Both the position numbers and the translations under genes were made by a program. 52,064 nucleotides of DNA, taken from a virus. Below the pieces are notes generated by a model. That model ran no database searches. It worked only from the letters and a program-made list of their open reading frames with translations, and had not been told where the DNA came from. Where the stretch lies: positions 1 through 52,064 of IMG/VR virus record IMGVR_UViG_3300033064_003389; one strand, given 5' to 3'. This document shows positions 1,416-23,100 of the stretch, piece by piece; position 1 is the stretch's first letter; every line of letters begins with the position of its first letter.

Positions 1416-4400
1416 TGGCTGAAAACCCAAAAGACGCATACTTTAAAAATCCTGATAGTCCTGGATTAGCTAAACAAGCTGCCGGCTTAGTTGGCACATT
1501 AGCTATGTGGGGCATTGGTTTAGCTGCTGCACATCAAGTACTTCGAAGAGGAAAAACCAGTCTTCTAAAAGGTTGGGCAAAGTACTCAAAAACTCCAGCA
1601 GTAAAAGCAGCGGCACAGTCTAGCCTAGATAAATTCTCCAGTAGCGGTGGAAGCTTAAGTCATTTCTACGCTGATGTTGGTGGCCCAGGCTCCCAGGCAT
1701 TACGTTCACTTAGGTATGCTGCAGAAGAAGCACCACTAATAAGTGCCTATACAAAACTTAGAAAAACTACAAATGTATTTGATAGAGCTGCAGTACTAAA
1801 AGGTAGACGGCCTATAAGAGTTGGTGGTAAAGACATCCACCTTAATAAAGAAAATAGAACTGAATTATATCAAAGTTTTGCAGCAAAATATACACGTGAG
1901 ATGGCAACCATCTCTCCTTTATTCTACGCCGCAGAACAAGTTACTGGTGGTCACGGACAAAGTGCCCATCAACGCGATGGAGAAAATAACCCAGCATGGT
2001 ATAATGTACCGGGTCATGCAGTAAACTTTGCAAAGTGGTTACCACAATTTGCAGCATTTGATATAGCAGCTCGTGGTGCGTTTAAAGGGATCCCTTACGC
2101 ATACCACAGCGTAATGTCAAAAGGAATACGTCCTGATTCTCTTCGCCATTTAACCCTTAATGTAGATAAGTCCCGTGAAGCTCTATCAAAAACAACACAA
2201 GATAATGTATTCATTCAAGCTAAAGCATCTTGGGATTCATTCAAACATATGGTGGGTACCAGAAGAACACCAAGTAATAAAGATAGATTAATTAATTCTG
2301 GCGGTGGAACATCGAACTTCATTAATTGGGCAAAAGGTAACCTAACAAAGTTTAGTAAGAAAAAAGATGAGTACGCAGCTCAGTACGTTAAAGATTTACA
2401 AAATGTAACTCAGTCAACAAGCAGGTACATAGCTGGAGATACATTTACATCACTTGTTAGTCCTCATGAAGGAATAGCAAAAGGGTATGAAAATGTATTT
2501 AGCCTAATGAAACATACAGGCGGCCTAGGACCAGAGTTTAGAAAACGTATGTCTGATCTACTATTTAGTAGAGATAGAAGTCTTATGCCAACACTAGCTA
2601 AGTATGGCGGACTAGAAGACTTACGTCTAGGTCATCTAAAAGAAGCCGGCATGGATAAGCAATATGGTGACATTTTACATACATGGGATAATGCACGCAC
2701 CGTTGCTAGGACTAAACCAAAAAGATCAGGCAAGGGTAAAACCAGAAGACATAGAAAAACTAATAGAGAGTATGATTCCCTATTTAAAGGGGGAAGCGCA
2801 GATAGGGCTACAAAGCCAACACACACTAAAGATGATTTATTAATGTCTAAGGATTTGTTCTGGGATCCTGCATCTAAAAAGATTGTTGATCTAACCAATA
2901 CTAGAGGGTATGATGTATTAGGTAGAGTAACAAATTCACTCCATAAAAAACTTTCATTATTTGATCGTGTTCCTGCGCTTGATTTATTCCCACTAAAAGC
3001 CATAGTTGGTTATAATATGCCAGAGTTTATAGTAGCCAGCAAAAGTGTAATACCACAAAGGTCTAAGACAGATATAATACCAGAAGGCTATTCTAAAAAA
3101 TCTATTATATTTCCTGAGAGTCCAGGTGTATTTATAAAAGATGGCGGTAAAAGAACATATACTCTGTATTCAAGACCAGTAACTAAGGGCGCTTACGGTG
3201 TAGGGGCAACTAACTTATATGGAATGAGTAGATTCGATAGTCAAAAGATGGCAAAAGTCATGGAGTATATGGAAGGCATCGGTAGACCAAAAATTGATGA
3301 TGTTGATAAAGATATAGGACCACTTAGATCATGGCTGTTTAGGCAAACTAATATTGGTGGAGGCTCTCTAACTAAAGATCGTGAATCTGGATTTGCCATG
3401 GGTATGGCACATTGGAAAGGCGATAGCAGAGCATGGGCTATTCTAAAGGATGATTATGGATTAAGAAATATAAAGAGTGTAGCTAACTTTATAGACGACG
3501 CAGACACTGCGTTAAAGCTCGGACAATTAGATAATGTATTTATGCAAGCAAGGCGCGATGCTTTTCAGACACTAGGAAAAGATGATGTATGGAAAAAGAT
3601 AATGGGACCACTGCTTGGTCAAGATAAAGGCGGCAAAACAATAGTTAAAGGTATCCACGGCACATATAATATGGATGACTTATTGAGAGATAAGCCATCT
3701 AAAGACGGTATAGTACCAATCATGGATGTACTAGAAAAACTATTTTCTAAACGTGGTGCTGGCGGACAAACTCGTAGAGCCGCACTAAGACAAGATACCC
3801 CAAGTCTTGATACAATTAGAGATCTAATTAAGTATGACCAGACATATCGCGGAACTGGTGAACTTCCATCTGTTGCTGCTCGTAGGGCATTTACAGAATA
3901 TCATATTCAAACCAATCTATTAAAGCGTAAATCCACACTAACTTATGGTGCCCCAACAGGTCAAGCCGATGCTTCTGGAAATATAGCAGATGTCATTAGC
4001 GGAATACAAGAATCAATAGAGTCAGTAACCAAAGTAATCGATGACGTATTAAATAATAACGCCATGGCTAAAACTAGTTTAATAACTAGAAAAGAAAAGA
4101 CTGCTGTTGATATGGCTGTCCAAGGATTAGCATGGGAAGAAACTCTACGAAATATAGGCTACACTGATGAGGTTCTTACTGGAAGAGCAAGTAGTCCAAG
4201 ACAAGTTATAGGAAACTTATTTAGCTCATCAAAAGAATTAACTATAAAGCAACATAATGAGGCAACGTTCTTAACAAAATTCCTCACTAAGATGTCAACA
4301 ACTTCAGTTAAACAACCTGAAGGGTCACCAGTACAGTTTACTAAGTTGTGGGATGATTATTCTAAATCTGTAGGCAGATGGCGTACACTTGATATCCCTC

Positions 4401-7400
4401 GCACAGAGAGCGAAGCATCAAGTATTATGCAAGAAAGTCTTAGAGACAATCCGTACTTCTGGTTCAACAATGATGCAGCAACTTGGGGTAAATCTATATT
4501 CCATTATGGAGCAGAAACATTCAACACAGTAATGGATATGATTGGTGTTGGTTGGGATCGTGCCCAATATAAAACACTATTTGGAAGTAAAACCGGCGTA
4601 TTAAATCTATGGGGAAGACGGTTAGCATTAGCTGGTGGAGTAGCAGGAGCGTACCAAGCTGTTGACACCCTGACAGATGCAAACCCACTACTAGATGGGA
4701 CAGCCCTCGATGAGGGAGTAACTGTAGCTCTAGCAGATCAAGCAGTCAGAGCAAGAATGATTGCTGGTCATATTTATGACTTTACTGGCGTTACCTCTGC
4801 CATGAAATATATGGAAGGATTAATGCCAAAGAGTTCAAAGATTTTACCAGGCGCAGCAGCAGGATTTGCAATCGGCGGTATACCTGGAATGATTACTGGC
4901 GGGATATTGAATTCCTATATTCAACCCACACTAGCAGAAAGCCCTCTATCTTTCTTATCTATCCTCCCGCCAGTAGCTCCTTTCGTAGCTGATCTTACTA
5001 GATCACATGCTGAACTTAGAGATTTATATAGTGGACGTGATTGGGAAGAAGTAAGACGCGGACAAGGATGGCCTCTAGGTAATCAACCTATAGAAGGCGG
5101 ACGTGTAACACAGATGAGACCTAACTGGTTTCATCTACTAAAATCACAAGCCGCAGCTTCCCCTGTATTATATGGGTCTAAGGTTGAACAATTCTTATTT
5201 AAGGACTTACCACTTCTTGACTTCAGTTTTGGTGATCTAATTGATCCACATTATCTAGAACGTAAGCACGGAGAAGATAGACCTTATCCTGTCCCTGATA
5301 TACCATTCCAAGAAATACCTATTCTTGGTCCAGCAATAGCTGCCACATTAGGTAAAGCATACTTAGCCCTACATCCACTAGGATCGAACACATCTCCAAA
5401 TGAAGCAGCAGCAATAGAAGCTCTCTCAGGCGGGTTTGGTTTTAACCAAGAAGAAGGCTTCGGCCCAAAGTATAGTGGAGCATATGGAGAACAATTTGAT
5501 AATAATAATTCTGATCTTGTCTATGGCACAGCAACTGGCAGAGCACCTATAGTACAATCACCATACAGTACTCACCAGGTTTTAGCTGAACAAATATATA
5601 AAGGCGTAATAGAACCACCCGGACTACTTGGATGGGCAACATCAACAGCCCTATGGGGAGGCGATGAACCGTACGTTGATGAACCAGTATTCTCTGCAGC
5701 CAGTGCAATGGACTCATTCAGTAGAAGATACTGGGACATGCAGTTAGGAGATCCACTATTACTAACTGAAGGTTTCCGTAGATTAGTGCCTCGTCCTAGA
5801 ACCAGTCGTGAAGAAGTCAATCCATTACGTAACAGAATGCCCAACTGGATGCCTGAAGAGTACCAGTACGGCGATCCTTACTGTCTAACGCCAGAAACAA
5901 TGGTTGAAACAATAACTGGGCTTATACGGGCAGATAGCATTAAAGAAGGTACGCTTATCCGCACCATCCATGGCAGATACTTTCCAGTAAGCAGAGTTAA
6001 AGCTCGCCCGGTAAAAGAAAAAGTATATAGAATTAAGATTGAAGGAAGTAATCATATCCTATCTGTTACTGGGGAACATCCATTTTATACTTGTAATGCA
6101 GACACTAACAAAACTCGTGAGTTTGTACAGGCTAAAAATCTGCAAGTTGGCGACTATACTGTGTATCCTCTTCTAAAAACACCACCAGATCAGGTAATTA
6201 AACTTCGTGGAACACCTAGTGCGCGTAAGGGTGGAGGACATTTATCAATACCAGTAAACTCATATACTTCAACTCTCATGGCATTGATGACTAAGTATGG
6301 ATATATAGATAAACATAAACATATTCTTATGGGCGCAACAGAAGCAAGTACTGTATTATTTGATGAGGTGGTTGAAATAGTATTCGGTAAACTACCAAAT
6401 TGGCCACTCATGCAGTTACAACAACTTATAGATTCATATGGTATTCCTCCACAACTGTTCTCAGCCCCATTAAATATATTCTCTAACTATTTAGAACAAT
6501 TTGTTTCTTCAATAGATGAGTGGGATAGAGTTCTAAAATTTGATTTCCCTAATAATAGTATAGCCTATCAAGCGTGGTCTATAATGTTACAGAATAATGT
6601 TATAGGACTACTAGATGGAAATACTATTGAATGCCCAAACTGGCATGTTGATATACATAGTAGTAATGCACGCAAAATACAAAATAAATTACTTTGGTTT
6701 AATATAACCGGGTTACCAGAAACACAATACTCAACTAGAATAGTTGAGCATGTTAAGTCCCCTATTAGGGTCAAACGTAAAGAAATCTATTTTAAAATTC
6801 AATCAATCGATATTGTTGATTATGATGGTGACGTATATGGGTACCAAGTAGACACTGATGACACATTCTGCGTTGCTGGATGTGTTGTACATAATACACG
6901 TATACCATCAGGAGAGGTACTTCTACCTGGATCAGGGTTTGAATCAGTAGCAGACGTAACAATGGATTTCCCAACTGGCGTAAGTAGATTAGGATACTCA
7001 GCCTACGAACAATCATTACATATGATTGGCATATCAGACCCACTATCAAAAGATGTAGAAGAAATTCTTGATACTGGAACTGCAATACATAGAATGGTTC
7101 AAGCCAATCTAACACGTTCGGGTGTTATATCAAAAGCTGAAGCTCATGTATATGATCCATATATGAGAATTTCCTCATATGTTGATGGTATAATGAAACA
7201 ACAGAACGGGCAAGAACTACCACTAGAGATAAAAACAATTAATGCAAAAGGATTTCAGACACTAACTAAGCCTAAGCATAAGCATCTTATTCAAATTAAC
7301 TCCTATATGAAAATGCTAGGTGCCCCTGTTGGATCAGTTTTGTATATAAATAGAGAAGATCCATCTCAGACACGTGAGTATAAAGTCCCATACAGCCCTA

Positions 7401-9130
7401 AACTGTGGGCTGCAACAATGTCAGAACTTGAAACTGCTAGATCATACGCATCAGAGTGGGCCAATCAGGGTTATGGAAATAAACAGGGCGGTTATTCATA
7501 CTTAGATAGATTACAAGTACTATTAAATGCTGATCCGTTCAGTAAAGAATACCGAGAGGTAGGAGATATTGTAGCAGAACAATCTAATCTAGGTATTCTT
7601 GACGATCAAGAGACAGCGCGTTACGAAAATATTATCCGATGGCAGCGAAATATGACTCGCCGCCATGATATGTATCCGTATAGATTTCAAGGGAGCCAAT
7701 TAATTGATCCAGATGCTGAACTTAGACAATACAATTCGAACGAACTTATAAAAGCTGCGGCCGAATATGGGCCACTTGCTCGCGTAGCTGGCAACTTATG
7801 GGAAAAATTCACTCACTTGCGTTCACCAATACACACAAAACTTATTGGTGCATATTCACCAGAAGAACAATACGAGCGTTCTGTTCTATATGGCTCATCA
7901 TTCTATGATTGGCAACAACCAATAGATACAATATTAGAGCCGTGGGCTCGTGGGCTTAAGTCAACCACTGATCCAGTACAGGGAGGAATGTCATTTGGAT
8001 TAGGGGGATTCATGTTAGCTGGCGCACCTGGAGCACTGGCCGGCGCAGCAATAGGTGCAGTATATGGGACGGCCCATGGAGCTTATCGCGCAGCAACAGA
8101 TACCCAATACATACCAGAGAAGTTTGATCGTATGGCAGATATCCAACAATACTTCGATCGAATAAAATATGAACAAGCTCAATATCTTTGGATGGCAACA
8201 AAAGATCCACAATACCAACGACAAATGCAAAACACTGCAGTTGGCTGGTCAGCAGATGCAAGAACACGAAGTGCAACTAACTCTAGGGTATCAAATACAA
8301 ACCAGTATAATGTTAATGATACTGAAAGCAGCATGCTAAGAGGCACCCTATCTAAGTATATGGGTGCTGAGATACCTACCATACATAGGGTATTTGATGG
8401 AGGAAAGAATTGGAGTAGGACTTCCAGAGAATCAAATAGACCAATAGATTTTGATCTTGGCGGCGATCTAGGATTCGGATCCCCATGGAAAGGAACCGAC
8501 ATACAGCAGACCTTAGATTATGATGCATTAAATATAGGTGGAGGTATGGCAGCATCTCCTTATTGGGATAGACCATTCTTTACTGCGTTCCTTGAAACAC
8601 CAGAACCAAGTAGAGATAAAATTCTCCGCATGGTTGATGAAGATTTTGCAGAAATGCTAAAAGCAGCTTGGAGACACGGTAAACCATCAACTCCATCATC
8701 AGAAGAATATTTCGATACACACTACAGCCCACCGAAAGGTGACGCCATCTATTCTCCTCAAACCAATGTAGATGATTGGAAATATGAAACTATAAAAAAT
8801 GAGGGACTAGTAGCGCATGAATTTGGTATAGGGTGGAGAGACCAATTACGATCTATAAATAACTCTCCAATTAATATTCAACCAATTAATATAAACGCAG
8901 AAAATGATGTTGAAACTCCAACTAAAGACTTAAGTGTTAGCAAAGTTAGAGGTGAAGTACAAAATGTATTAAATCGTACAGGATTTGTTGATGCCACTAT
9001 TAGTATAGGGGGATCACCATCAATAAAAGACAAGATTATATTACGCGTACAAGTAAATAGAGATTCAACATCCGAAATAATGCGCGTTTACAATAGTGAC
9101 AATAGAAATGCCAGAGTTAAACGAACATAA
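1415..9130 (+). CDS. Giant tape-measure-position virion protein with intein and PD-(D/E)XK nuclease domain
   Basis: This 2571-aa protein starts at an ATG overlapping the previous stop. It sits directly after two chaperone-like genes, where the tape measure gene normally lies. Hydrophobic Gly/Ala-rich segments occur near residues 17-42, 1070-1085, 1143-1170 and 2197-2228, as in tape measure or ejected proteins that contact membranes. An intein occupies residues 1490-1827. Just after it come the motifs of a RecB/Cas4-like nuclease: GTAIH (His1892), an Asp in SYVDG (Asp1924), LEIKT (Glu1938, Lys1940) and QINSY (Gln1960, Tyr1964). All expected catalytic residues are present, so the domain may cut DNA. 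Known: tape measure proteins set tail length and can be ejected. Inferred: that this is the tape measure and that the nuclease enters the cell. It could instead be a separate inner virion protein. Confidence 0.6.
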   Translation: MAENPKDAYFKNPDSPGLAKQAAGLVGTLAMWGIGLAAAHQVLRRGKTSLLKGWAKYSKTPAVKAAAQSSLDKFSSSGGSLSHFYADVGGPGSQALRSLRYAAEEAPLISAYTKLRKTTNVFDRAAVLKGRRPIRVGGKDIHLNKENRTELYQSFAAKYTREMATISPLFYAAEQVTGGHGQSAHQRDGENNPAWYNVPGHAVNFAKWLPQFAAFDIAARGAFKGIPYAYHSVMSKGIRPDSLRHLTLNVDKSREALSKTTQDNVFIQAKASWDSFKHMVGTRRTPSNKDRLINSGGGTSNFINWAKGNLTKFSKKKDEYAAQYVKDLQNVTQSTSRYIAGDTFTSLVSPHEGIAKGYENVFSLMKHTGGLGPEFRKRMSDLLFSRDRSLMPTLAKYGGLEDLRLGHLKEAGMDKQYGDILHTWDNARTVARTKPKRSGKGKTRRHRKTNREYDSLFKGGSADRATKPTHTKDDLLMSKDLFWDPASKKIVDLTNTRGYDVLGRVTNSLHKKLSLFDRVPALDLFPLKAIVGYNMPEFIVASKSVIPQRSKTDIIPEGYSKKSIIFPESPGVFIKDGGKRTYTLYSRPVTKGAYGVGATNLYGMSRFDSQKMAKVMEYMEGIGRPKIDDVDKDIGPLRSWLFRQTNIGGGSLTKDRESGFAMGMAHWKGDSRAWAILKDDYGLRNIKSVANFIDDADTALKLGQLDNVFMQARRDAFQTLGKDDVWKKIMGPLLGQDKGGKTIVKGIHGTYNMDDLLRDKPSKDGIVPIMDVLEKLFSKRGAGGQTRRAALRQDTPSLDTIRDLIKYDQTYRGTGELPSVAARRAFTEYHIQTNLLKRKSTLTYGAPTGQADASGNIADVISGIQESIESVTKVIDDVLNNNAMAKTSLITRKEKTAVDMAVQGLAWEETLRNIGYTDEVLTGRASSPRQVIGNLFSSSKELTIKQHNEATFLTKFLTKMSTTSVKQPEGSPVQFTKLWDDYSKSVGRWRTLDIPRTESEASSIMQESLRDNPYFWFNNDAATWGKSIFHYGAETFNTVMDMIGVGWDRAQYKTLFGSKTGVLNLWGRRLALAGGVAGAYQAVDTLTDANPLLDGTALDEGVTVALADQAVRARMIAGHIYDFTGVTSAMKYMEGLMPKSSKILPGAAAGFAIGGIPGMITGGILNSYIQPTLAESPLSFLSILPPVAPFVADLTRSHAELRDLYSGRDWEEVRRGQGWPLGNQPIEGGRVTQMRPNWFHLLKSQAAASPVLYGSKVEQFLFKDLPLLDFSFGDLIDPHYLERKHGEDRPYPVPDIPFQEIPILGPAIAATLGKAYLALHPLGSNTSPNEAAAIEALSGGFGFNQEEGFGPKYSGAYGEQFDNNNSDLVYGTATGRAPIVQSPYSTHQVLAEQIYKGVIEPPGLLGWATSTALWGGDEPYVDEPVFSAASAMDSFSRRYWDMQLGDPLLLTEGFRRLVPRPRTSREEVNPLRNRMPNWMPEEYQYGDPYCLTPETMVETITGLIRADSIKEGTLIRTIHGRYFPVSRVKARPVKEKVYRIKIEGSNHILSVTGEHPFYTCNADTNKTREFVQAKNLQVGDYTVYPLLKTPPDQVIKLRGTPSARKGGGHLSIPVNSYTSTLMALMTKYGYIDKHKHILMGATEASTVLFDEVVEIVFGKLPNWPLMQLQQLIDSYGIPPQLFSAPLNIFSNYLEQFVSSIDEWDRVLKFDFPNNSIAYQAWSIMLQNNVIGLLDGNTIECPNWHVDIHSSNARKIQNKLLWFNITGLPETQYSTRIVEHVKSPIRVKRKEIYFKIQSIDIVDYDGDVYGYQVDTDDTFCVAGCVVHNTRIPSGEVLLPGSGFESVADVTMDFPTGVSRLGYSAYEQSLHMIGISDPLSKDVEEILDTGTAIHRMVQANLTRSGVISKAEAHVYDPYMRISSYVDGIMKQQNGQELPLEIKTINAKGFQTLTKPKHKHLIQINSYMKMLGAPVGSVLYINREDPSQTREYKVPYSPKLWAATMSELETARSYASEWANQGYGNKQGGYSYLDRLQVLLNADPFSKEYREVGDIVAEQSNLGILDDQETARYENIIRWQRNMTRRHDMYPYRFQGSQLIDPDAELRQYNSNELIKAAAEYGPLARVAGNLWEKFTHLRSPIHTKLIGAYSPEEQYERSVLYGSSFYDWQQPIDTILEPWARGLKSTTDPVQGGMSFGLGGFMLAGAPGALAGAAIGAVYGTAHGAYRAATDTQYIPEKFDRMADIQQYFDRIKYEQAQYLWMATKDPQYQRQMQNTAVGWSADARTRSATNSRVSNTNQYNVNDTESSMLRGTLSKYMGAEIPTIHRVFDGGKNWSRTSRESNRPIDFDLGGDLGFGSPWKGTDIQQTLDYDALNIGGGMAASPYWDRPFFTAFLETPEPSRDKILRMVDEDFAEMLKAAWRHGKPSTPSSEEYFDTHYSPPKGDAIYSPQTNVDDWKYETIKNEGLVAHEFGIGWRDQLRSINNSPINIQPININAENDVETPTKDLSVSKVRGEVQNVLNRTGFVDATISIGGSPSIKDKIILRVQVNRDSTSEIMRVYNSDNRNARVKRT
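5882..6895 (+). other. Intein (338 residues) within the giant tape-measure-position protein
   Basis: Splicing motifs are clear. The first residue is Cys1490 (CLTPETMVET), block B is VTGEHPFYTC about 60 residues later, block F is YGYQVDTDDTF, and the C-terminal block is VVHN followed by Thr1828 as the downstream nucleophile. Splicing would join GDPY to TRIPSGE. Between blocks B and F are about 220 residues, enough for a homing endonuclease, but the LAGLIDADG-like remnant (LMALMTKYGYID) lacks the expected acidic residue at its core, so the endonuclease is probably degenerate. The insertion lies shortly before the nuclease domain of the host protein, and the frame is maintained throughout. Confidence 0.9.
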
Positions 9131-12100
9131 CGACGTACAACTAAACAAAGTTAAAGACACGCGTGATATACTTATCAGCTACGCGTTGCTTCTTCCTACT
9201 ATACTTGGCATAGTTAAAGCCAGCTCTAGTGGGACAATACTACACTACCGTGACCAAGTTGTGAACTTTCTGAATAACGCTCTTGATGACGGAAGTTTCT
9301 CAGGTCAAAAAGTATTAGTAAACATAGCGTCTAAATCAGCAGATATAACTGGACCAGAAAACGTAGCAACCCGTATAATGGAAAGTCCAGCTGCAGCAAT
9401 AACTAAGTCACCGTCTGCCTCTGAGCACGCACGGCGTATTGCACATAATGATCTAGAGCGTATGCAAGCACAGAAAACATCTGAACTACAAAGCGTTATA
9501 ACAGGTAAACTTGAAGCAGCTAAAAAAGCCCAGAAGAAACTGTTGGGCGCAATAGAGTATATGACATCAGATCCAGCAGAACTTAGATACGTTCAAAATC
9601 CTTTGTATATGCCAACAAAACTTATCGGTCGTGGACCAGAAGACAGAATGCATTTAATGGCCCTTGTCGAGGCGTTTGAAGCCGCTCCTGGCGGAACTAG
9701 GTTAAACCGTGGGGGAGTATCTGTAGATGAACTACGTAATATGCTACGATATAACACTTCACGTCTTGAAGAAATAGTAGATCCAGTTATTCTTGATCGA
9801 TATACAAAGATAATGAATACTAAAGCATTACAAATACGTTCTGGAAAGGCAGTTGAAATGTACTTACGTCCTAATAGAAGTACACAAAGAACTGCAGCTG
9901 ACTATATGAGCCTGCAAGCAGGAAAGACACTTCTTATAAATGGCCGCCCAAATATAAAGACTAGTAAAAATTCAGCTTCAGTAATTAAGCATGAATTAGA
10001 AACCGCAGGAGTAGAGGGACTACTTGATTCTAGAACAAAAGATGCAGTACAAAAACAACTTGATAGAGCCATAACAGGACACCAAGAAGCACTGGGTGTA
10101 AACCATTTAGGCGCTCTATATGGAAACTACTACTCAACTAAAGCACAGGGAAATGAAATTAATAATGTATATCAAAGAATAGCCAGTAAAATACGACATC
10201 TGTCAGGACAAGATGGTGTATTTAAAAATGCCAGTACAAGGCTTGTTTCTGATGAGGGACGTGCGTTTGGTAACATGCCAGTTAAGTACTTTAAAATTAT
10301 GATTGATATACCAAATGGTAGTCCAATTGAAATTCCAATTCCTACTACACAGCTTGGGTATACATTTATTGAGCCAGGAAAAGGCCCAATGAATTCTAGA
10401 CTAGACGCAACGGCCTATACTTTGTCCGGAATGAAAGGTCCACTATCCTCACTAAATCAAAAAATACCATTCTTAGTTAATAAGGCATTGAATGATTATA
10501 ATGAAAACATGTCTGGTACAAAAGCCAGCGAAGTAGTTCTACGAGAGATACACGATTTAATATCAGCACAGTCTCCGGCCACAATTACACGCGGCGATAT
10601 AATGAAACAAAATATTATTGGGCACACAGGTGCAAAGCTTATGGCCGGGCTATCAAATGCAACAGACTATAAGAGAGCCTTTGAGGCCAGTTCTGTAATT
10701 AATTCATGGCGAAATGCAACTCATTTATCCGGTGTACGTATATTCTCTTTTGATACTGAATACATGCGCCCAGGCGGAATGATAAAAAGTGAGGGATCAA
10801 AACTAGCAGTCCAGGAAGACACAAGAATATGGCAACTCGGATTCGATATCCTTGATGGAAACAAACATAAAGCAATGGATAATACAGGTAGCGGTACTCT
10901 TTATATAAGACCAAGTAATTGGGAAGCTATAGAACCAGATGTACGTACATTTTTAATGCGTAACATCACAGGTAAAACTGAAAGCAGAGAAGTACTTGTA
11001 GAAGAGATACTAGATAAGGTTAGAAAAAGTAAAACCACACTTGTTGATGCATTGAAGATTTTAGAAAAGAGACTTGTAATTGACGGAGTACCTACACTTA
11101 TAGCCGGTCAGAACCACACAGAGGCAGATATACCAGCACTAATAAATACTATTGAAAAAGAACTTAGCCCAGTTGAAGCTCGAAACTGGAAAAAGCGTCT
11201 CGGTCCGTTGCTTAATGCTGATCTTACTAGCCCCAATAGCAGACATATTGATGTTATGAAATGGTGGAGAGGCATGACACTTGGAATGAAAACGTCTGAT
11301 GCTAACAGTTCCATATTTGAACAGCTGTATAAAGGTGTTACAGAGGATGAATTCTCTAGACTACTAGAGGGTTCAAAATTGAAGACAGGTGGATTCGAAA
11401 CACAAAAGGGCAAAGTACTAAAAAGCATAATGGATATATTTAAAGAATCACGTGAGTACAGTGCTAAGTCTAATGCTGATAATAAAATAATACGTAATAC
11501 TTGGAAAGCATATCAAACTTTCATTGACGCTGGATTCAGCGGCTCTATAAGCTACACTGCCCATTTGGATGCTAGGTATGACTCAGTAATTACAGCATTA
11601 AATTTATTTGAACTCGATAACTTAGATAGAAATCCAACACTTGAACATAATCAAGCCATGGTTAGAATGGAATATTCATCCAAGCTGTATAGAACTAAAC
11701 AATCCGGAGCCGGAAAGCCATGGGATTATGTACATAAAGTTTACGATAATCCAGAGTTTGCCTACATGATGAGAGAACCATTATATGAGTTAGGTGATCT
11801 ATCCACGTTTGACCCACTAAGCGGACAACTTAAAGCAGATGACTATTACAAAGCTGACGTATTCAGTGTAACTCACAGACAAGCATCCCTAGCAAGAGCT
11901 GGATTGTTCCAACTAGAGCGTCACTTGCCTGGTGGTTTTCTTAATAATGTACTACGTACAAAATTTCAAGTATATAACACAGCAACATTAACAATTAATC
12001 CTGCACAAATATATGATTATCATAAATTATCTAAGGCTGCCCCAACAATGGCACCAATCACAACACAGAGTACCTACACAACAGTAGTAGGATCTAAAAC

Positions 12101-15100
12101 AGATTCAGCACTTGCTGCTACTCGTGAATTTATTCATGTCCCATCTGCTTGGCAGAAAGATAGTATAACAGCAGACGGGATAAGACTACCAACATTATTC
12201 TTACCTGACCACTTAGGGATTGTTAATGAAGGTAAACAGTATCTTAAAGATAGTGTTGCTAAATCTATATTAGTACATAAATATGGAGCAACATCATCAA
12301 CACAAATTACAACAATACATTTACCATCAGCAGACTATTTGGGCCCTCTATCAGAGTACGGTAAAATAGACTCTAAAAATGCATCAACAATTGCTGATCT
12401 ACTTCGTGACCTTGGCTTTGGTTCTAAATTTACTAAGCCATTTGAAGGTAAACCATTGTTTACTAAAGCCGGACAATTAATATCTGATCCAGTACGAGGG
12501 GCATTATATGGTAAATCAATATCTATAGCCCCACAAGAACGTATATTTGGTAACATCGATCCAAGTAGAAATCCACTTGATGGAAAGATACCTCACTCAA
12601 ATAATGACCAATTATATAGAAAACAAGTATCTGGTGACATAGTAAATGTAACATTTAATCCAAAAGATCAAACCATGAATCTTGAAATAGCAAGTCCATC
12701 TCCACTTACAGCAGGAGCAAAAATTATAGGCGGGGACACAATGGTTACTAAAGGAATGCTACACTCAAAGATACCATCATCTGCTGTAGGATTAAATAAT
12801 ATACTGTCAATACAAGGATACAAGTTTGGTGGCAGTAGGGACGAATTGGGATCACTGTTAGAAGTACAAATTAACCGTGTTGTTGATAGAGTATACGCAC
12901 AACACGAAGACATACCAAGTCAAAAAGCAGCAATGAAAAAAGCATTAAAGCCTTTACTTGGATCTAATATACTAACAGGTGACGAGCTGCCTGGTAATTC
13001 TCCTGCATACCCAACCGCTAGACTAGTAGAAGTTTCCACAATAGGCGGCGGAAGAAAAGCAGTTGCTGTTCAGCTTACTGATAAAGGACAAACTGCATTA
13101 TATGAGAAAGCTTCTGACTCCATGGATAAGCCACTTCGTGAGATGCTTGAAATAGCTGGAGTTGATTATGACCATACTAGGAAACAATTTACTAAACAAG
13201 CTCAAGAATTTATTGGTAATCAAAATGAAATTGACAGACAATGGGGATTAGCAATGTCTGAAGGAATTAGATTTTATGATGAAGACATTAATAAGTTAGA
13301 ATCAAAACTTAAGATGGGTGGGTACACCGCAGAAGAAGAGAATCTTATGAGACTAAAACTAGGAAATTTCATAGCTCATAAAAAAGTAATAACAGACGGA
13401 ATGAATGGTACTAAAATACACGGAGGAATGATATTTGATCCATCCACATTTGAACTTGACCCAAGTAAAACTGGACAAGCTAGTGCTGGTATTGGGGTAA
13501 TAACTACCTTCCAGTCTATTCGGGCAGGTATAATGCACCGCGTAGCAGAGACTGCACCATATGATTTTTCTACAGCATTTGTAAGACAAGAGAGTAGATT
13601 TGGCATACCAAGAGGCCCATCAAAGACAAGTGCATATAATGCCATGGTATTAAGACACACAATTAGGGCACTAGATGCACCAGACTTCACCGGGGGCACA
13701 GAGAAATGGATTAGAAGTCTTGAACTAGAAATGGGCGGACTTAAAACATCTATACACTCCCCAGCAAAATCTCTAATAGGCGAACACATGAGAGGGCTAA
13801 GTGTATCTAGATTTAAAATGCTTTACAGCTCTACTAAAGCACTTCCTAAAGTTTTAGCAGATACTCTTGTACAAACTCTTAACTCAGATGCAATAAAAGA
13901 GATTGCAGATACATTGAATACCGATATCAGTGACTCTTCTGCTGAGTTTATCCGTAAAGAATTCAACATAAGCCTTAAAGGAGGACGAGGTGGATGGGCA
14001 AAGCAGTTAGATGAACAGTTAGCAACACGACAAGATCTACATGTAAGACGAGCAGAAATAGAATCTCTTGCTAGATCTAGAAAGGTTACTATACTTGATT
14101 CTAACTCTGTACGTGTACTTACTGACCCAACAAACAAGGCAACCATGTTCGAAGCAAAGCTACATGATTTTGGCACATATAGCGGTAGAGGGTCAACACA
14201 AGAAAAAGCTATGACACGTTTATTAAAAATAGCTCAAGAGGTAGATTCAAGAAGAGGAAGCCCACAAGGTGGTTTAGCTAATTTATTCGACGGCCTAACA
14301 TTTGATATAGAGAGAGATGTAATAAACAAACTAAAAAAAGTCCCAGACTCGTATGGTTCTGAGATTGAACAACTACTTGAAACATCTAAGAAATTTAGAG
14401 GCAGCGGCAAGAGTAGGGTAGGATCCTTAGTACTTCCACGCTTGGTTGGTGTAAACGAATTGTTTAATCCCGGTCACGCTGTTGGCGGGCAGGAAGGAAA
14501 AGTTGTTAGTGGTGGAATGCAAAGACGGGTACTGGAAACCATACAACATATAGCAAACTTAGATGCTGCAGGAACAGAAGTTGAAACCATACTCAGCAAG
14601 TTGGAAGATGATAGTCTAGAAATGAATACTACCATAAGAGAAGCTGCTGTTAAATCTTTACAGAATTATAAAGTTGCACAAAGCGCAATGCAAAATGCAA
14701 TATCTAGTGAGGTTATGCAAAACATAATCAGCCCATCATACTCATTAACTATGCATAAGATGTTTACTTCATGGATGCCAATATCATATGGTAAACTGTT
14801 TGGTCACCTGGGACTAATACCAAAGCTATCTGAATTATATCAGTCTATGGATGTAGTAACCGATAAAACAGCTACTCCAAATTTCGCTATGCTAAACTCT
14901 GAACTCGGTATGAAGGAGGGAGACTTTACAAAGAAAACTGAATTTACGTTTCCTAGCGGCAAGAAACAATCAATCGAATACGATGTTCGTAAAAGTTTTT
15001 ATAACTTACTTAAAAATACAAACGGTAGAGATGCAAATAAATTATTTTCCCCATCAGGTGAGATACTATTTAAAGGACTTGGTATAAATCAAACAATAAT

Positions 15101-17012
15101 TCCATACTCAACTGCTAAACAATTCTTACAGGGAGAGATTGTAGATCAAGGTAGAGACCTATCTGATGATGCTATAGGATGGCTCCAAGGTAAGAAACCA
15201 TTCCCAATGGGCATGAACAGGGATCCAATTCAAATTCACGGGTTCTACGGTGTGTCTGCCAGCTACGTTGTACCGGATGAACTATGGCACCTTACAGGTC
15301 AAGCAGAAAAAGGCAGTGCAATTATAAATTCCTTCATTTATATTGACCCACTTACCAGAGATAGTATGTATGCTGATTTCGATGGTGATATAGGATACCT
15401 ATTATCACTAGGAGATAAGAATTTAAAAGAAGCTGCAACTATAAGTAATAAACATACAGCCCAGTTAATACGACAAGAGGTTCAACGTAATAAAATGAAA
15501 GGCTTAAAAGGCGGCGCAGAGTTTACGTTGGAGTGGGGTGGATTTATAATGAAGGACGCACGTGAAGTATTAAAACAACTAGTTAATCTAAACGAGGGCG
15601 GCAAAGTAGTATCATACAAAAACACACTACAAGATATAGCATTATCTCTCAAAGACAACTCAAGCGACATAAGTCCAGGCTCACTTAAGGAATTAATGCC
15701 AGAATCTCTAAATGCAGCATTCACTGGGGTTGACTATGAAGGAATTAGAGCAACAAGAGTAGATGATTACTTAACACAGAAACTCCTTAGTGGTCCAATG
15801 GGTGCATTACACAAATTCTATACCGTACAAATACTAGATCAAAACAATTCTGCATACACTCAGGTACGTAATTTAGTGGACACACAGGAAGGATCTGCTG
15901 CTCTACAATCATTCCTTTCAAATAATAAAGGACTAAAAAGAGATTTCATGCCAGATGTAGCTAGTTTTAAAAACTATATTGATGACTTCTATAAAATTCA
16001 GTCTGCAGATGGTGTACCATTTTCATTATCTGGAAATGTAACTGGGTGGTCTGGTATACTTACACATGAAACATCAATTCAAAAGAAACTTAACATAGAA
16101 CAAGACAATAGATCTAGAGCTACTAAGTATCTAAGAGCGTGGAAAAAGTTCCAATACGGCGGTAAGTCCGCTAAGGAAATGATTCCAATAATTGATACAC
16201 TTACATGGGACAAGGGAAACTCTGATCTCTCATTCCTTAGAACATATTATCAAGGTAACCTCAATAACAGCAAACCATTAGATGATTTAACTCAAGAAGA
16301 ATTTAATATTCACAGAATGGAAGCTAGAGATGTATTGAGAAAAGACTACGTTGTAAGACAGTTTGGTTCAAGCCAAGGAACAAATGATTTTACCTGGCAA
16401 TTCATACGTAAAGCATCTCAAGGAGATGCAGCCCTTATGATGACTTTAGTTGCTGGAGATTATAATTTATCCAGCGCACTTACCCATGCAACAGCACCGT
16501 GGGCACGAAATCTTGGATTGAATACTAGACATGATATAGCAACAGTTGTAAATCAATTAGCAAATGAAGGAAGTATGTTCAATAGAACTACTGCAGTAGA
16601 AATGTTAAAAACTCAGATGAAATCTTTATTTGGTGGAGCATATAAAACCATGGGTAGAAGTTTTAAGGCCGCAGGTATAGTTGCTCTAGGTGCCATGGCT
16701 CTAGACCCTAATGCTAATAGTCTTCTTATAGGGGACACATTAGGAACAGGAGGAGAACGATATGATTACCCGGATCTTAGTGGATTGTTCCGTTCCCGCA
16801 AGCCACAAGTTAAAAATGAACCAGCACCATTTATTGATAAACTACGTAGAGCTGCTGGTTTACCAAGCGCAACTGTGCCACAACTAAGAAAACAACGCAG
16901 TTCGGTACCACCACGGCCACAAATAAGGTATACCGGTCGCAGAAGAGATACATATAATAAGCTTAATATTAATCAAGCCATTAAAGCCGCAGAACGGGTA
17001 GCGATATCATGA
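9096..17012 (+). CDS. Giant protein with DEDDh exonuclease domain and RNA-polymerase-like double-psi barrels; candidate virion RNA polymerase
   Basis: This 2638-aa protein is numbered from a GTG at 9096; the ATG at 9108 (codon 5) is an equally plausible start, and neither has a good Shine-Dalgarno. Residues about 25-45 are hydrophobic. Residues 550-835 carry the three exonuclease motifs of the DnaQ fold: FDTEY (Asp553, Glu555), GQNHTEADI (Asp678) and AHLDARYD (His823, Asp829). Near residue 1205 a G-x-K-x-x-G...TKG segment (Lys1209, Lys1219), then GSRDELGSLLE, resembles the beta-subunit barrel of RNA polymerase. Residues 2040-2098 read MNRDPIQIH...YADFDGD, closely matching the beta-prime catalytic segment with its three metal-binding aspartates (2094, 2096, 2098). 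Single-chain polymerases of this type are known from YonO and crAss-like phages. Packaging in the virion is inferred from position between tape-measure-like and hub genes. Confidence 0.6.
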   Translation: MTIEMPELNEHNDVQLNKVKDTRDILISYALLLPTILGIVKASSSGTILHYRDQVVNFLNNALDDGSFSGQKVLVNIASKSADITGPENVATRIMESPAAAITKSPSASEHARRIAHNDLERMQAQKTSELQSVITGKLEAAKKAQKKLLGAIEYMTSDPAELRYVQNPLYMPTKLIGRGPEDRMHLMALVEAFEAAPGGTRLNRGGVSVDELRNMLRYNTSRLEEIVDPVILDRYTKIMNTKALQIRSGKAVEMYLRPNRSTQRTAADYMSLQAGKTLLINGRPNIKTSKNSASVIKHELETAGVEGLLDSRTKDAVQKQLDRAITGHQEALGVNHLGALYGNYYSTKAQGNEINNVYQRIASKIRHLSGQDGVFKNASTRLVSDEGRAFGNMPVKYFKIMIDIPNGSPIEIPIPTTQLGYTFIEPGKGPMNSRLDATAYTLSGMKGPLSSLNQKIPFLVNKALNDYNENMSGTKASEVVLREIHDLISAQSPATITRGDIMKQNIIGHTGAKLMAGLSNATDYKRAFEASSVINSWRNATHLSGVRIFSFDTEYMRPGGMIKSEGSKLAVQEDTRIWQLGFDILDGNKHKAMDNTGSGTLYIRPSNWEAIEPDVRTFLMRNITGKTESREVLVEEILDKVRKSKTTLVDALKILEKRLVIDGVPTLIAGQNHTEADIPALINTIEKELSPVEARNWKKRLGPLLNADLTSPNSRHIDVMKWWRGMTLGMKTSDANSSIFEQLYKGVTEDEFSRLLEGSKLKTGGFETQKGKVLKSIMDIFKESREYSAKSNADNKIIRNTWKAYQTFIDAGFSGSISYTAHLDARYDSVITALNLFELDNLDRNPTLEHNQAMVRMEYSSKLYRTKQSGAGKPWDYVHKVYDNPEFAYMMREPLYELGDLSTFDPLSGQLKADDYYKADVFSVTHRQASLARAGLFQLERHLPGGFLNNVLRTKFQVYNTATLTINPAQIYDYHKLSKAAPTMAPITTQSTYTTVVGSKTDSALAATREFIHVPSAWQKDSITADGIRLPTLFLPDHLGIVNEGKQYLKDSVAKSILVHKYGATSSTQITTIHLPSADYLGPLSEYGKIDSKNASTIADLLRDLGFGSKFTKPFEGKPLFTKAGQLISDPVRGALYGKSISIAPQERIFGNIDPSRNPLDGKIPHSNNDQLYRKQVSGDIVNVTFNPKDQTMNLEIASPSPLTAGAKIIGGDTMVTKGMLHSKIPSSAVGLNNILSIQGYKFGGSRDELGSLLEVQINRVVDRVYAQHEDIPSQKAAMKKALKPLLGSNILTGDELPGNSPAYPTARLVEVSTIGGGRKAVAVQLTDKGQTALYEKASDSMDKPLREMLEIAGVDYDHTRKQFTKQAQEFIGNQNEIDRQWGLAMSEGIRFYDEDINKLESKLKMGGYTAEEENLMRLKLGNFIAHKKVITDGMNGTKIHGGMIFDPSTFELDPSKTGQASAGIGVITTFQSIRAGIMHRVAETAPYDFSTAFVRQESRFGIPRGPSKTSAYNAMVLRHTIRALDAPDFTGGTEKWIRSLELEMGGLKTSIHSPAKSLIGEHMRGLSVSRFKMLYSSTKALPKVLADTLVQTLNSDAIKEIADTLNTDISDSSAEFIRKEFNISLKGGRGGWAKQLDEQLATRQDLHVRRAEIESLARSRKVTILDSNSVRVLTDPTNKATMFEAKLHDFGTYSGRGSTQEKAMTRLLKIAQEVDSRRGSPQGGLANLFDGLTFDIERDVINKLKKVPDSYGSEIEQLLETSKKFRGSGKSRVGSLVLPRLVGVNELFNPGHAVGGQEGKVVSGGMQRRVLETIQHIANLDAAGTEVETILSKLEDDSLEMNTTIREAAVKSLQNYKVAQSAMQNAISSEVMQNIISPSYSLTMHKMFTSWMPISYGKLFGHLGLIPKLSELYQSMDVVTDKTATPNFAMLNSELGMKEGDFTKKTEFTFPSGKKQSIEYDVRKSFYNLLKNTNGRDANKLFSPSGEILFKGLGINQTIIPYSTAKQFLQGEIVDQGRDLSDDAIGWLQGKKPFPMGMNRDPIQIHGFYGVSASYVVPDELWHLTGQAEKGSAIINSFIYIDPLTRDSMYADFDGDIGYLLSLGDKNLKEAATISNKHTAQLIRQEVQRNKMKGLKGGAEFTLEWGGFIMKDAREVLKQLVNLNEGGKVVSYKNTLQDIALSLKDNSSDISPGSLKELMPESLNAAFTGVDYEGIRATRVDDYLTQKLLSGPMGALHKFYTVQILDQNNSAYTQVRNLVDTQEGSAALQSFLSNNKGLKRDFMPDVASFKNYIDDFYKIQSADGVPFSLSGNVTGWSGILTHETSIQKKLNIEQDNRSRATKYLRAWKKFQYGGKSAKEMIPIIDTLTWDKGNSDLSFLRTYYQGNLNNSKPLDDLTQEEFNIHRMEARDVLRKDYVVRQFGSSQGTNDFTWQFIRKASQGDAALMMTLVAGDYNLSSALTHATAPWARNLGLNTRHDIATVVNQLANEGSMFNRTTAVEMLKTQMKSLFGGAYKTMGRSFKAAGIVALGAMALDPNANSLLIGDTLGTGGERYDYPDLSGLFRSRKPQVKNEPAPFIDKLRRAAGLPSATVPQLRKQRSSVPPRPQIRYTGRRRDTYNKLNINQAIKAAERVAIS

Positions 17013-17194
17013 ACGTATCAATTGATATAACCCTCAATAACATACAGTACGAGCACGATGTGCACTCAGATATTGCCTATCTTCAGGCATATCTACAAGA
17101 TTTATTCAAGACTGAAGTAGAAGTAGAAATAGATGATCTTGATTATTCAGATAAAATCAGTCTAGCCAAACAGGTAAAAGCATCTAATGGCTAA
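17009..17194 (+). CDS. Small hypothetical protein between giant genes
   Basis: This 61-aa acidic protein starts at an ATG overlapping the TGA of the preceding giant gene (ATGA) and ends overlapping the ATG of the next by eight bases. The double overlap with the same frame order as its neighbours argues that it is a real gene. It has a helix-prone middle (SDIAYLQAYLQDLF) followed by an acidic stretch rich in Glu and Asp, with no membrane segment or cysteines. I do not recognise it. A small baseplate or tail-tip accessory protein, or a chaperone for the giant proteins, would fit the position, but this is only inference. Confidence 0.7.
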   Translation: MNVSIDITLNNIQYEHDVHSDIAYLQAYLQDLFKTEVEVEIDDLDYSDKISLAKQVKASNG

Positions 17195-20100
17195 TTATTT
17201 CTCACAACTTACCCTAGACGAGTCAATTAACATACTGTTAAACTCTTGTCAACCAAAACACATACACCCAAATCATCCGTTTTGGGAATCTACTGAAGCA
17301 CTATCTCTTCCATCTATTCCTAAGTTTAATTTTTCTGATGAGGAGAACAGACAACTTCGAATAGCATATTTATTATATGTGCTAAGCACACAAGGAACTA
17401 CTGCACTAACTAGCCTATCATCATTATATTTGAGTTTTCCACTAGGGTTAATGTCTATAAATGAACAAAGTATTCCAGCGGATATGGCAGATAAATTCAT
17501 AGCATCATTAGAACTTGGCACATACTCTAGCGCATACCCTATAGGGTCGTCATCACATCTTATAACAGAATCCCATGAAATACGTAATCTAACATTAATG
17601 GAATACTGCAGCAGAGAAGGAACCCCATCAAGTATATTAATAGATCTTATGAGCACAACTAGATCATTTTCTGTTAAGTCTTTAATAGATAAATTAAAAG
17701 TTATCTGGCAAGATGAAACTGGAATAATCTGGCGCACATCATGGGAAGATAGGTTTGGTGTCACTATCAACTCAGGTGCAAACTTAAATAAGATCCTTTC
17801 TGATAAAGCAAAAGAAGCAATCAAAGATTCAGGCAATGAAGCAACCTCAACTATTAAGGTAAACAACTACACTGATGAGTACGACTCCAATAACTTACCA
17901 AGACCAACCACTACAGATAATTATAAAACCGATAACAATACAGGTAAACTGGTTATAGGTGATCTTGTATTTCATGTTCCTCCATCATCATTATCATTCT
18001 CTACTGACACACAATCTATAAGTTTGCCATCACTACGTACATCAAGTAACCCGGTTATAACTACTAAATCTTCCACACCTCGTGTAAATATTACATTATT
18101 TTTTGATGGAGTCAAATCAGTTAACAAATTCTTACGCCCATTGTATGCTATGTACAAGAACGCTCCGTTTACAACTGTTCAAAACTCAACAATTAGTAAA
18201 AGCTTTCTTGGAATACAGTTTGATGCAGAAGGAAAGAATGAAATTAGTAATGGAGAATACTTCTCCACCCCTATTCCTATTGTACTTGACGCTGTAAGCC
18301 TGCACACTATATCAGGATACCCAAGCAGTTTTCAGGCTGATATATCAGTATCACTATTTAACTCAGTTCCATATGTAAACGGTGGACTAGAGTTCTTATG
18401 CACAACTGACGCAGCAATTGAACAGGCTGAGTATCATTCCAGGCGAACGTCAAAAGCATTTAACACATACTATCTCGACCACACAGACAGTAAAACTGCA
18501 GGTAAAGCTACATTCATAGAACAGGGCGGAACAATGTCTGATCATGAAGTACCAAGCATACAGGGAATATATAGAACTAAATACCCAGCAGAGAGTTGGC
18601 CCTTTGTAAAAATGTACCGCAGCCCATTAAGTGAGTTTAAATCATACCCAGCATCAATAGCCGATCAAGCTAAGTGGCCTATATACGAATCCGATACACT
18701 AGATTTTGAGATACAATATAACAGTACAAATGAATTAGATATACTACAGTATAGATTTGAAAAACAATTAGATGAGTTTAATAAAATGCAGAATAGACTT
18801 AATCTTATGTTCTTAGTTTTATCAGACCCAAAGGATGATGGTCTCAGGAAAAAGTTCTTTGAATCAAGTGATAGAACTACCGAACTACGATCTAAATGGT
18901 TTTCAAATTTACTAAATATATTCAATGAAGCCCAACAAGTGACTTCATTATTTGAAATCTTAAAGACCGAATTCAAGTACGCACAAACAACCCTACTTGA
19001 GTCTGGTAATTGGGATTCCCTAAATAGACCAAAGCTTGATCTTAATATTAACTTCCTTGATACTTCAGGCATAGATGGTAAAGAAGGAGTTACAAGTCTT
19101 ATACTTGGGTTTGAAAAATACGTAAGTCAGTTAGACATACTATTGTATGCTACTACTTTTCCGGAACTTGAAGCAGGAGAAGAATCTGAATCTATTAAAA
19201 AGGCTCGTAGTTTAATTTCATTAAATAACACAACAAAAGAAGAACTACTTGGTTTAAAAAAGTCAGTCAAAATATTAGAAGAGCTTGGCGGTACAATAAA
19301 ATCTAGATTTTTAAATGAACTATCTAATGTTATACTGTCTGAAGTTGAAGAATCTATTACTCCTACAACCCTTAGACTTGTTAATTCATCTCCTGACGGC
19401 TCAACTGTGGTTCACCATCCATCTAAAAATACTTCCGTATTTGTAACAACCGTTACTGGAATATCGTTAGCTTATGCAAACAATGTAACTGCTCTACCAA
19501 TCATTGGTTATTCGATTCCAACATATCAGCACATGGGTGGATCTAATGCTAGAGTTACAGTAAACCTCCGTACTAATGCTGAAGACCTTATTAAGCATCT
19601 TACTGATATTAAAAATAGTTCTAATGTTATAAATCAATTAGTAACGTCTGGTGAATCTGATCTGATAGACCTATCAAAGGTAAGTATAAAACATAATTTT
19701 TTACAGAGCATTGGACTTGAAGATTTCTCTCTATCAAGTATACGTACAGATACAATTGCTGGAAGTCCTGGTTGGTTTGACATTACAATGGACTTCCTAC
19801 AGAACTCAAACAAGCTAACTGATTATGAATCACTTAGATTACTACAACAACCAAAAGTTTCAGCCGGCGTATGGGAATTCTTCTGCCCATTAAAGAATAT
19901 TAAATTCCCCATTAAAGAGAAAGAAATTGAACAAATAAAATCTGATGCTAGAGACAAATTACTTACACAATTTCCACAACAATACTTTAGCGGACATATA
20001 TTACCTCCACCACCTAGATCCTCCGTCAATGTTCTTATGGAAGAAACCAGTGAGTTTATGGTTTCTAATTATGTTATACCTGATGACCACCTTGTAGACT

Positions 20101-23100
20101 CTAGTATAATTAAAGTTGTTCCAACTTCAGGAGAAGAATATAACGCATTCACATTTACCATAGTAAACAAAAACAACGGGGATCTGAACTCACATCTTAT
20201 GTTTGTATATATTGATACAATCAGAGACTACTTAGATCATATGAATGCACTACTGCAGTACATAGAAAGCATAAATATTGATGGTACTGGAGGAAAAACA
20301 ATTAATTCATTCCAGCGTCAGTTTGAATCAATAGTATTAAAGTACATTAAAATGCTAATTAATAGTCTTAGTGCCCTAGCAAAAACTGAACCAGATCATA
20401 TATTAAAAAATAACGTAGCAGAATTAATACTGCCTGAATTGTTAGGAGACGAAGATGGAAGATTTACAACCATACAGGGGTATGTATTAAATCTTGCAAG
20501 AGTTAAAGACCTAGGTACACTACTACGTCGCTCAGATTCGTTAAAGATCATTGATAGTATTATAGAAAATAAACCATCTGGCGTAGTTCGTAGTAAAAAA
20601 GATAATGATGGCGGACCTGATGACCTAACTATACTGTCCAATTTTAGAACTAGACTTGAAAAACATTATAAAGACTTAGATGCTACAGTTGGAACAACCT
20701 ATCCAGACCTTCCAATACCTGCATTAACATTAGGGGATAAGGCAATAAACCATAAGCTTTTTGGTCCAGCATTTTATACATATATTGATGCTGACTTTAG
20801 TGAGTATAAACTTATGGCAAATACAATAAGCTCTCTACGCCACTCAATAGCGCTGCAGGTAGCTACTCTACAGGGTCAAATAGTTAAAGAGAAGTACGAG
20901 GAGCTTAACGAAAGTTTAAACGAAAGATTTGTTAACATAGTTGGTCAACTAGAGGGTAAAGTACCAGATTTTATTGCAGACAAAGACGGCAATCTAACAC
21001 TTGATAAAACTTTCACAACGTTCATTAATTATCATGCTTCAATGCTACGAGGATATGAGATTGGAGAAGAGTTAGACTTCAAAGCAATTAGAGATATAGA
21101 TCATTATTTTAAAGGCAACTCATTCATAGCAGCGTTCTCAGATGAGATTAGTGTATTTGGTAATACAGAAGACTACCCAGATAATGAAAGCTATGGTTCT
21201 ACAAAGAAATTATGGACTAAAGTAATAATAGCTGGAGCATGCTTGCGTTATTATATATTTATGGGTGCCCTGTCATCTGCTTTAGGAATAAAACAAACCA
21301 TTGTTGACATAGATCTAAATACAAAAAAGGACAAAGAAGGTAAAACCTATACATCTCTGAACTTTATATCAGAAGACGGCTCAATTATAAAACAAACCAA
21401 CTTAGCACTAGCAGCAAGAAAACTTTTTAAGCCGGGATTTAATGAAAATATACTTATCCAAGGATCAATATCATCCACAGACTCTGGTACAGTTGACGAA
21501 GATCGAAGACAAGAATCACGAATACTTAACACGATAGTACAGATCAAAAAAGAACTAGAGTCACTGTTGACTCAGGAAGACCCCAATACACATGCAAATA
21601 TCTTAGGCATAACAGATATTGATTCAGATGTCAATAGATTTGAGCTAGAACAAAAGATTAAATCTGAGTATGAAAACTCTCAGAGTCTTGGACTAGGACT
21701 TGCGTTTCCAACATTCAAGTTATTCTTTATAGAAGAAAATTCTAATGGTCTTATGTTGTTCGACGATTTCTACAGCTACGATGCAGTCCATTCCATTGAC
21801 GTTGTATCTAGTAAGCACGCAGCCAGCTCAACCGCAATAATAAAACTTTCTAATGTTACCAATAAGTTAACCGGACTTGACATAGCATCTCTATATAAAG
21901 ATGGATCATCTCTAGAGTTACCTAGTATGTATCTTAGACCTGGCACCTCTATTGTACTGCGTCTTGGGTACGGAAGTGATTATAGACAACTTCCAATTGT
22001 ATTTCAAGGGGCAATAACTGATGTATCCCCCGGTAGCGTAGTAGAAATAACTGCACAAAGTTGGGGAGCTGAACTAAATCAGCGTATAGCGGTTGAAGAA
22101 AAAGTTGTACATTCTTCAAAAGGTGGAATCACAACACTTGGTGGAGTAATACTAGATGTACTTGATAAGCTAAGTGGACTAAGACATTTTGGCAGATGGG
22201 AACAACGTGGAATAGGTGAAAGCGTAGATGTACTTGCCGGCCCTGAAATAAAACGCATTGCAGCATATGCTAAAAATCCTCTCAGTAGGTGGCTAATTGG
22301 CATGGGTGTAGATTTTGTTACCGACTCATCTATAAGTAAAAGTCTTGATTCTCTATTAGCAGGAACAACAGAAGATAACCTATTTTTAAATATAGGCAAT
22401 TCATTATATGACAACATATATGTTAATGGTCTTCGTACAGATAAATATGCATTTATAAAATTCGCTAAGCTAGACAATCTTCTATACAATTTTGATTGGG
22501 TCATTGATAATGATACTGCCTGGAATGTACTTAATGAAGTGTGCCTACATTTAGGTGACTATATTGTAACCGAACTGCCATACAATGAGGGTAGTAATCC
22601 CCACTCACATGCCCCACGCAACACTCTGTACATAGGACCAAGAGAAGGTAATTATAAATGTGAAGACTCGTTGATATCATATGAATCTTTTGATGAGCTA
22701 ATAAAATCACAAGCAGAAACTTTCTTTAAAGGACTTGAAGATGTTGTACTAGACGAAAAAGATCCAAGCACAAGAGCAGCAAAAATTATACTTGAAACAC
22801 AGGTACCAGCTATTCTCGCTGGAATGAAACGTGCAATTGCTAGATCAACCTACATTAAAGATATTTCAATTAACATTGATGGACCACGAATCCTTGATGT
22901 CTTAAAGAGTTATGAATTTTTATATCTCCATAAGTTAATGCTCGAAACTTACCACACTAATGAAAGCATACAACGATTCTTACTTGATGCTACAGGGGAT
23001 AGGTACGAACGCTTATGGTTTGTCATAGCTCAACTACTAAGTGGCGGAGATGCAAACAAAGCAATTGAGTTTGTTAGAAAACACACAGATAACTCAATTC

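Follow-up and report, generated by a model that had tools for sequence, protein, structure and literature searches.

A giant gene in the tail module of a jumbo phage lineage very likely encodes a single-chain, two-barrel RNA polymerase

What kind of protein is encoded by a giant gene that lies in a contractile-tail cluster and yet carries the catalytic signature of an RNA polymerase? The question is raised by a stretch of 52,064 nucleotides of viral DNA (IMG/VR record IMGVR_UViG_3300033064_003389), hereafter the window, part of the genome of a jumbo phage in the lineage of Bacillus phage 0305phi8-36, ME3 and KLEB27-3. An initial annotation, made from sequence alone, had proposed that the gene encodes a polymerase with both catalytic barrels in one chain, carried in the virion and ejected for early transcription. 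We find it very likely that the product is a single-chain two-barrel RNA polymerase, probably virion-borne and ejected to start transcription. The sequence motifs, their conservation across the family, the fold of relatives and the position of the gene are shown below. The open reading frame encodes 2638 residues, beginning with GTG and with an alternative ATG at codon 5, and contains the following features.

9096 to 17012, plus strand: giant gene, predicted exonuclease and single-chain two-barrel RNA polymerase (open reading frame; a homologue lies at the same place in all lineage relatives examined)
9168 to 9224, plus strand: near the N-terminus, at residues 25-43, a hydrophobic stretch that may span the membrane (its hydropathy peaks at 1.86, and the closest homologue, L013, conserves it)
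12720 to 12722, plus strand: K1209, equivalent of a lysine invariant in 18 of 18 relatives
15216 to 15227, plus strand: NRDP motif, residues 2041-2044 (MNRDPIQIH begins at residue 2040)
15375 to 15389, plus strand: DFDGD catalytic metal-binding motif, residues 2094-2098 (L013 keeps the three aspartates, as do 25 of 26 distinct relatives)

The initial annotation had placed MNRDPIQIH…DFDGD at residues 2040-2098, which proved exact, and its positions for K1209, K1219 and GSRDELGSLLE held as well. The strict pattern NRxP-(28-58)-DxDGD was met by only 1 of 3000 shuffles of the giant protein. Direct searches of this protein gave no match in Pfam, PHROGs, PDB or the phage collection, and scanning IMG/VR and genome contigs with it, or with its alignment to L013, returned two near-identical contigs only; a contig scan with the KLEB27-3 homologue as query gave no match. 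An AlphaFold model of the window segment, built from a two-row alignment, reached a pLDDT of 31 and offered no usable fold. The absence of a direct database match favours the view that an unrelated giant tail protein carries the motif by chance, a reading all but excluded by the family conservation, profile and structure evidence that follows.

The neighbouring giant proteins match those of Bacillus phage KLEB27-3, Moorella phage MTATph1 and Acinetobacter phage ME3, the last annotated in its record as related to Bacillus phage 0305phi8-36. Two of these neighbours flank the gene.

1415 to 9130, plus strand: upstream giant gene, tape-measure-like (KLEB27-3, MTATph1 and ME3 have homologous genes in this position; Gly/Ala hydrophobic segments)
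17187 to 24518, plus strand: downstream tail hub / cell-wall hydrolase protein (tblastn to KLEB27-3 at 4e-15, MTATph1 at 1e-11 and the ME3 hub at 1e-4; phrog_20474 endolysin)

Baseplate genes follow downstream in the same tail cluster. In KLEB27-3, MTATph1 and ME3 alike, a giant gene sits after the tape-measure-like gene and before the hub; in the window and its relatives the giant gene is thus housed in the virion structural cluster. The location given in the initial annotation, between the tape-measure position and the hub of a contractile-tail cluster, is thus upheld. Some further features were also seen in these modules. Within residues ~1490-2012, the 1415-9130 protein carries an intein (PF14890) with a segment resembling the Cas4 exonuclease directly behind it (phrog_1706, E=4e-21), and the transposase gene of an insertion sequence lies at 45768-46919 of the window (phrog_506, E=1e-106), within the tail/baseplate module. 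In KLEB27-3, the tape-measure-like gene is in two parts around a small gene (gp031-gp033; locus L004, 7827-14980), possibly a homing-endonuclease or intron insertion.

The closest homologue, L013 (2634 aa, 28% identity), keeps all three aspartates (as ADWDGD) and K1209, with GKQP in place of NRDP. Further relatives were found through the conserved hub motif YPDLELPTY in IMG/VR (31 loci), reading the gene upstream of the hub in each. The pattern RxP-(30-62)-DxD[GS]D was present in 25 of 26 distinct pre-hub genes, compared with 25 of 5200 shuffled versions, and RxP…DxD[GS]D was present in none of 80 other large open reading frames of the same loci. It sits 413-951 residues from the C-terminus in relatives; one partial gene (L034) is cut short. 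A tblastn search with the KLEB27-3 hub led to phage-plasmids of Bacillus, Cytobacillus and Paenibacillus, and all five phage-plasmid pre-hub genes read carry R(Y/N)P(S/T)…DxDGD. When 18 relatives sharing 17-53% identity with the first were aligned, K212, R663, P665, D701, D703, G704 and D705 were among the invariant residues. The initial annotation had allowed that homologues without the three aspartates would refute it; 25 of 26 distinct relatives keep them. In most relatives examined, a hydrophobic segment lies near the C-terminus instead of the N-terminus.

The phage-plasmids are, as a side observation, filed as 'non-mobilizable plasmids' of 200-240 kb from Bacillus, Cytobacillus and Paenibacillus, and with their hub gene they are likely members of the 0305phi8-36 lineage (NZ_CP065512, NZ_AP024502, NZ_CP118109, NZ_CP048288, NZ_CP114067, NZ_CP035189, NZ_AP025341, NZ_CP021670 and NZ_CP014843). 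Those read so far carry the whole tail module.

The fold is best seen in the relatives. Searched against PDB, the 18-relative profile found the beta' subunit of the phiKZ non-virion RNA polymerase (7ogp) as its best match (E=0.0039); RNA polymerases made up six of the seven matches, and in the alignments shown RxP and DxDGD line up. An earlier five-sequence profile likewise ranked beta' first, while early hhalign runs with shallow profiles were uninformative even between known polymerases. Among Pfam families, only RNA_pol_Rpb1_2 was matched by several members (5 of 18, best 4e-4). An AlphaFold2 model of one relative, L046, built with the 18-relative alignment, reached a pLDDT of 73.5 and a pTM of 0.69, and its 1138-aa segment holds both barrels in one chain. 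When this model was compared with PDB by Foldseek, the top 50 matches were all RNA polymerases at E ~1e-6, led by the AR9 nvRNAP (7s01), RPB1 and beta', with some beta-type subunits. VIA-align matched it to RNA polymerase beta chains (Z 15.5, rmsd 3.6 over 272 residues, model residues 5-358), and among viral models it matched ME3_36, the positional homologue in ME3, at 8e-14.

Family profiles of each barrel were then placed on the window protein.

12522 to 12956, plus strand: beta-like double-psi barrel spanning residues 1143-1287 and including K1209 and GGSRDELG (hhalign family profile E=0.0022; blastp to L051)
14676 to 14807, plus strand: beta'-like segment ahead of the second barrel, at residues 1861-1904 and containing MPISYGKLF (second-best family-profile match, collinear, E=0.25)
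15177 to 15491, plus strand: beta'-like double-psi barrel, residues 2028-2132 (top family-profile match, E=0.14)

Against the whole window/L013 pair, the beta-barrel profile of the relatives matched best at residues 1143-1271 (E=0.0022); the next match was at 0.31, the reversed sequence gave 0.65 and the best unrelated window protein 0.061. In this alignment IAPQERIFG corresponds to PGDxLG, the K1209 region to the invariant-lysine region, and GGSRDELG to KHKDFG. By blastp, residues 1139-1300 of the window protein matched the relative L051 at E=0.017. The beta'-barrel profile was best at residues 2028-2111 with RxP and DxDGD in register, at a weak E=0.14 (reversed 0.57). Such scores can be weak evidence, as P23-45 gp96 gave a false match at E=0.02 in the window barrel test. 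Because the family profiles land on K1209…SRDELG and NRDP…DFDGD, both barrels lie in one chain. Homology of the window gene to the family is likely and well supported, though less strongly than for the Bacillota members, and it rests also on the shared locus.

The barrel claims of the initial annotation mostly stood. The beta-like barrel around K1209…SRDELG was recovered, and the presence of both barrels, their order and the single chain were upheld through homologues, profile searches and the confident model of a relative; support for RNA polymerase barrels comes from the relatives, not from a model of the window protein. The naming of K1219 as the second barrel lysine, with a spacing two residues longer, held only in part. 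The second Lys or Arg lies 7-8 residues after the first in most relatives and in L013, compared with 10 in the window, so that K1219 is displaced; in L013 a tryptophan aligns with it, and that protein's own lysine is 7 residues past its K1235.

The initial annotation had missed two things: a DEDDh exonuclease in the family, and a separate YonO-like polymerase in about half of the records. The first has a counterpart upstream of the barrels in the window.

10752 to 11582, plus strand: DEDDh exonuclease-like segment, D553/E555, D678, H823/D829 (motifs conserved in L013; motif-level only in the window)

Here FDTEY (553-555), D678 and H823/D829 are conserved with L013. The segment has no Pfam match and no significant profile match, and a profile scan of the window pair gave no convincing placement. 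Among relatives, an N-terminal DEDDh exonuclease was found in all 12 complete sequences aligned, with RNase_H_2 matched in 11 of 12, RNase_T over the cut-off, and D135, E137, N303, D308, H382 and D387 invariant. ME3_36 has the barrels, apparently without the exonuclease (by inspection), while MTATph1 has the exonuclease half without the barrels, and the two modules are therefore separable. It is likely that the giant protein of this lineage is usually a polymerase fused to a DNA- or RNA-trimming exonuclease; its activity is inferred.

The shared chain brings up a further reading, in which the barrels would make or prime DNA with the fused exonuclease as proofreader, as a PolD-like enzyme in one chain. 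The same two-barrel active site is found in DNA polymerase D, and the exonuclease accompanies the barrels in 12 of the 12 complete relatives aligned. We consider this very unlikely, as the Foldseek, VIA and profile matches listed were almost all RNA polymerases and the modules occur apart in ME3_36 and MTATph1.

A referee may also ask whether the protein is mainly structural, or a tape measure, with a polymerase fold that is no longer active. In its favour, the gene before the hub in 0305phi8-36, orf146, was assigned as tape measure from gene length against tail length (PMC2147016), and some members lack the polymerase core. Against it, the three aspartates, RxP and the lysine are invariant at 17-53% identity, as an active enzyme would keep them, and the usual tape-measure hydrophobic segments are in the upstream gene. 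This reading is unlikely. Only the last 60 residues of orf146 could be aligned to a relative (PMC2147016).

Members without the core were observed in two forms. In one relative (L057/L058), the gene in front of the hub is apparently split into two open reading frames, 1453 and 1246 aa long, which keep the C-terminal motif and lack RxP…DxDGD. In MTATph1 (locus L005, 12513-19869), the exonuclease half is followed by a transposase and an ATPase-like gene, then by a short gene that retains the conserved hydrophobic segment of the C-terminus together with the tail motif; this is an apparent natural loss of the polymerase core. These cases mean that the core is not indispensable in every member.

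Comparison with known polymerases places the lineage beside, rather than within, described groups. The claim of a YonO/crAss-phage type was only partly upheld: enzymes of the YonO/RdRP type (PF05183) likewise hold both barrels in one chain, and the likeness to YonO is architectural only. Membership of that family was rejected for the giant tail protein, which has no PF05183 match and is a different gene at a different genome position. PF05183 is absent from the window record; it was found elsewhere in the genome in 10 of 22 lineage records searched, always as a separate gene, and orf99 of 0305phi8-36 is such an enzyme (PMC2147016). A close parallel in plan is gp96 of Thermus phage P23-45 (PMC10770324), also a single-chain two-barrel polymerase in a giant tail protein, with DFDGD almost its sole recognisable motif. 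P23-45 encodes virion and non-virion polymerases in one genome, which resembles the lineage members with a second, YonO-like enzyme. However, P23-45 is a siphophage, and its 5002-aa tape measure, which includes a metallopeptidase, has the enzyme at the N-terminus. The window phage is contractile; its polymerase occupies the C-terminal half of the chain behind an exonuclease-like segment, and the gene that precedes it is a separate one resembling a tape measure. With regard to a tape-measure fusion of the P23-45 type, orf146 was assigned as tape measure, yet in the window it is the gene upstream of the giant gene that has tape-measure-like hydrophobic segments. The crAss-like phage phi14:2, a podovirus unlike the window phage, has a single-chain two-barrel virion polymerase (gp66; gp077 in the record used) among giant structural proteins, with the motif RxPN…DFDID. 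No sequence similarity to gp96 or to the phi14:2 polymerase was found. The phiKZ/AR9 jumbo-phage polymerases supply the family's best sequence match (7ogp) and top Foldseek match (7s01), but are split over several subunits, unlike the one chain seen here.

Packaging in the virion and ejection are inferred from gene position and by analogy with P23-45 and crAss-like phages; they remain the natural reading, as the initial annotation had held. A rival accepts the two-barrel RNA polymerase and keeps it inside the cell, where a gene in the late operon would serve to transcribe late genes. Position alone does not prove packaging, and the present analysis had no virion proteomics to draw on. Nevertheless, the gene is always flanked by the tape-measure-like gene on one side and the hub on the other, the KLEB27-3 record labels gp034 a 'structural protein' (we saw no primary data), orf146 at the same position was assigned as tape measure, and many lineage phages already encode a separate YonO-like polymerase. 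The intracellular reading is thus unlikely.

Under the preferred, virion-borne reading, the chain would run from the exonuclease-like segment (3'-5') through the beta-like barrel with the catalytic lysine to the beta'-like barrel with DFDGD. The polymerase would be made together with the tail proteins and probably packaged in or at the tail. It would then enter the cell with the DNA and start transcription of the first phage genes ahead of the host RNA polymerase or independently of it. The exonuclease may share its nucleic acid substrate, for instance to trim or proofread transcripts, or may attack nucleic acid of the host. Polymerase activity and the early-gene role are inferred. A bolder version is possible but no more than that: a lineage-wide virion polymerase that is delivered through a contractile tail and whose own chain includes the exonuclease as its proofreader or processor. 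Its polymerase organisation is undescribed for any phage in the open-access literature searched.

We found no description of the giant tail gene as a polymerase in the open-access full-text literature searched, and it is likely that the gene has not been described as such; tail-borne two-barrel polymerases themselves are known (P23-45 gp96, crAss-like phi14:2). A 2021 overview of jumbo phages listed none with its own RNA polymerase except the phiKZ-like group and two others (PMC7824862). On the present reading, ME3 and KLEB27-3, which stand outside the phiKZ-like group, would carry a divergent polymerase in the tail module, and so would several phage-plasmids of Bacillus and Paenibacillus and many relatives known from metagenomes. 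Tail-borne two-barrel polymerases, so far seen in siphophages and crAss-like podophages, would thereby be extended to contractile jumbo phages, with a fused exonuclease in addition. Because isolates with cultured hosts exist, how transcription starts in the 0305phi8-36 lineage can now be tested.
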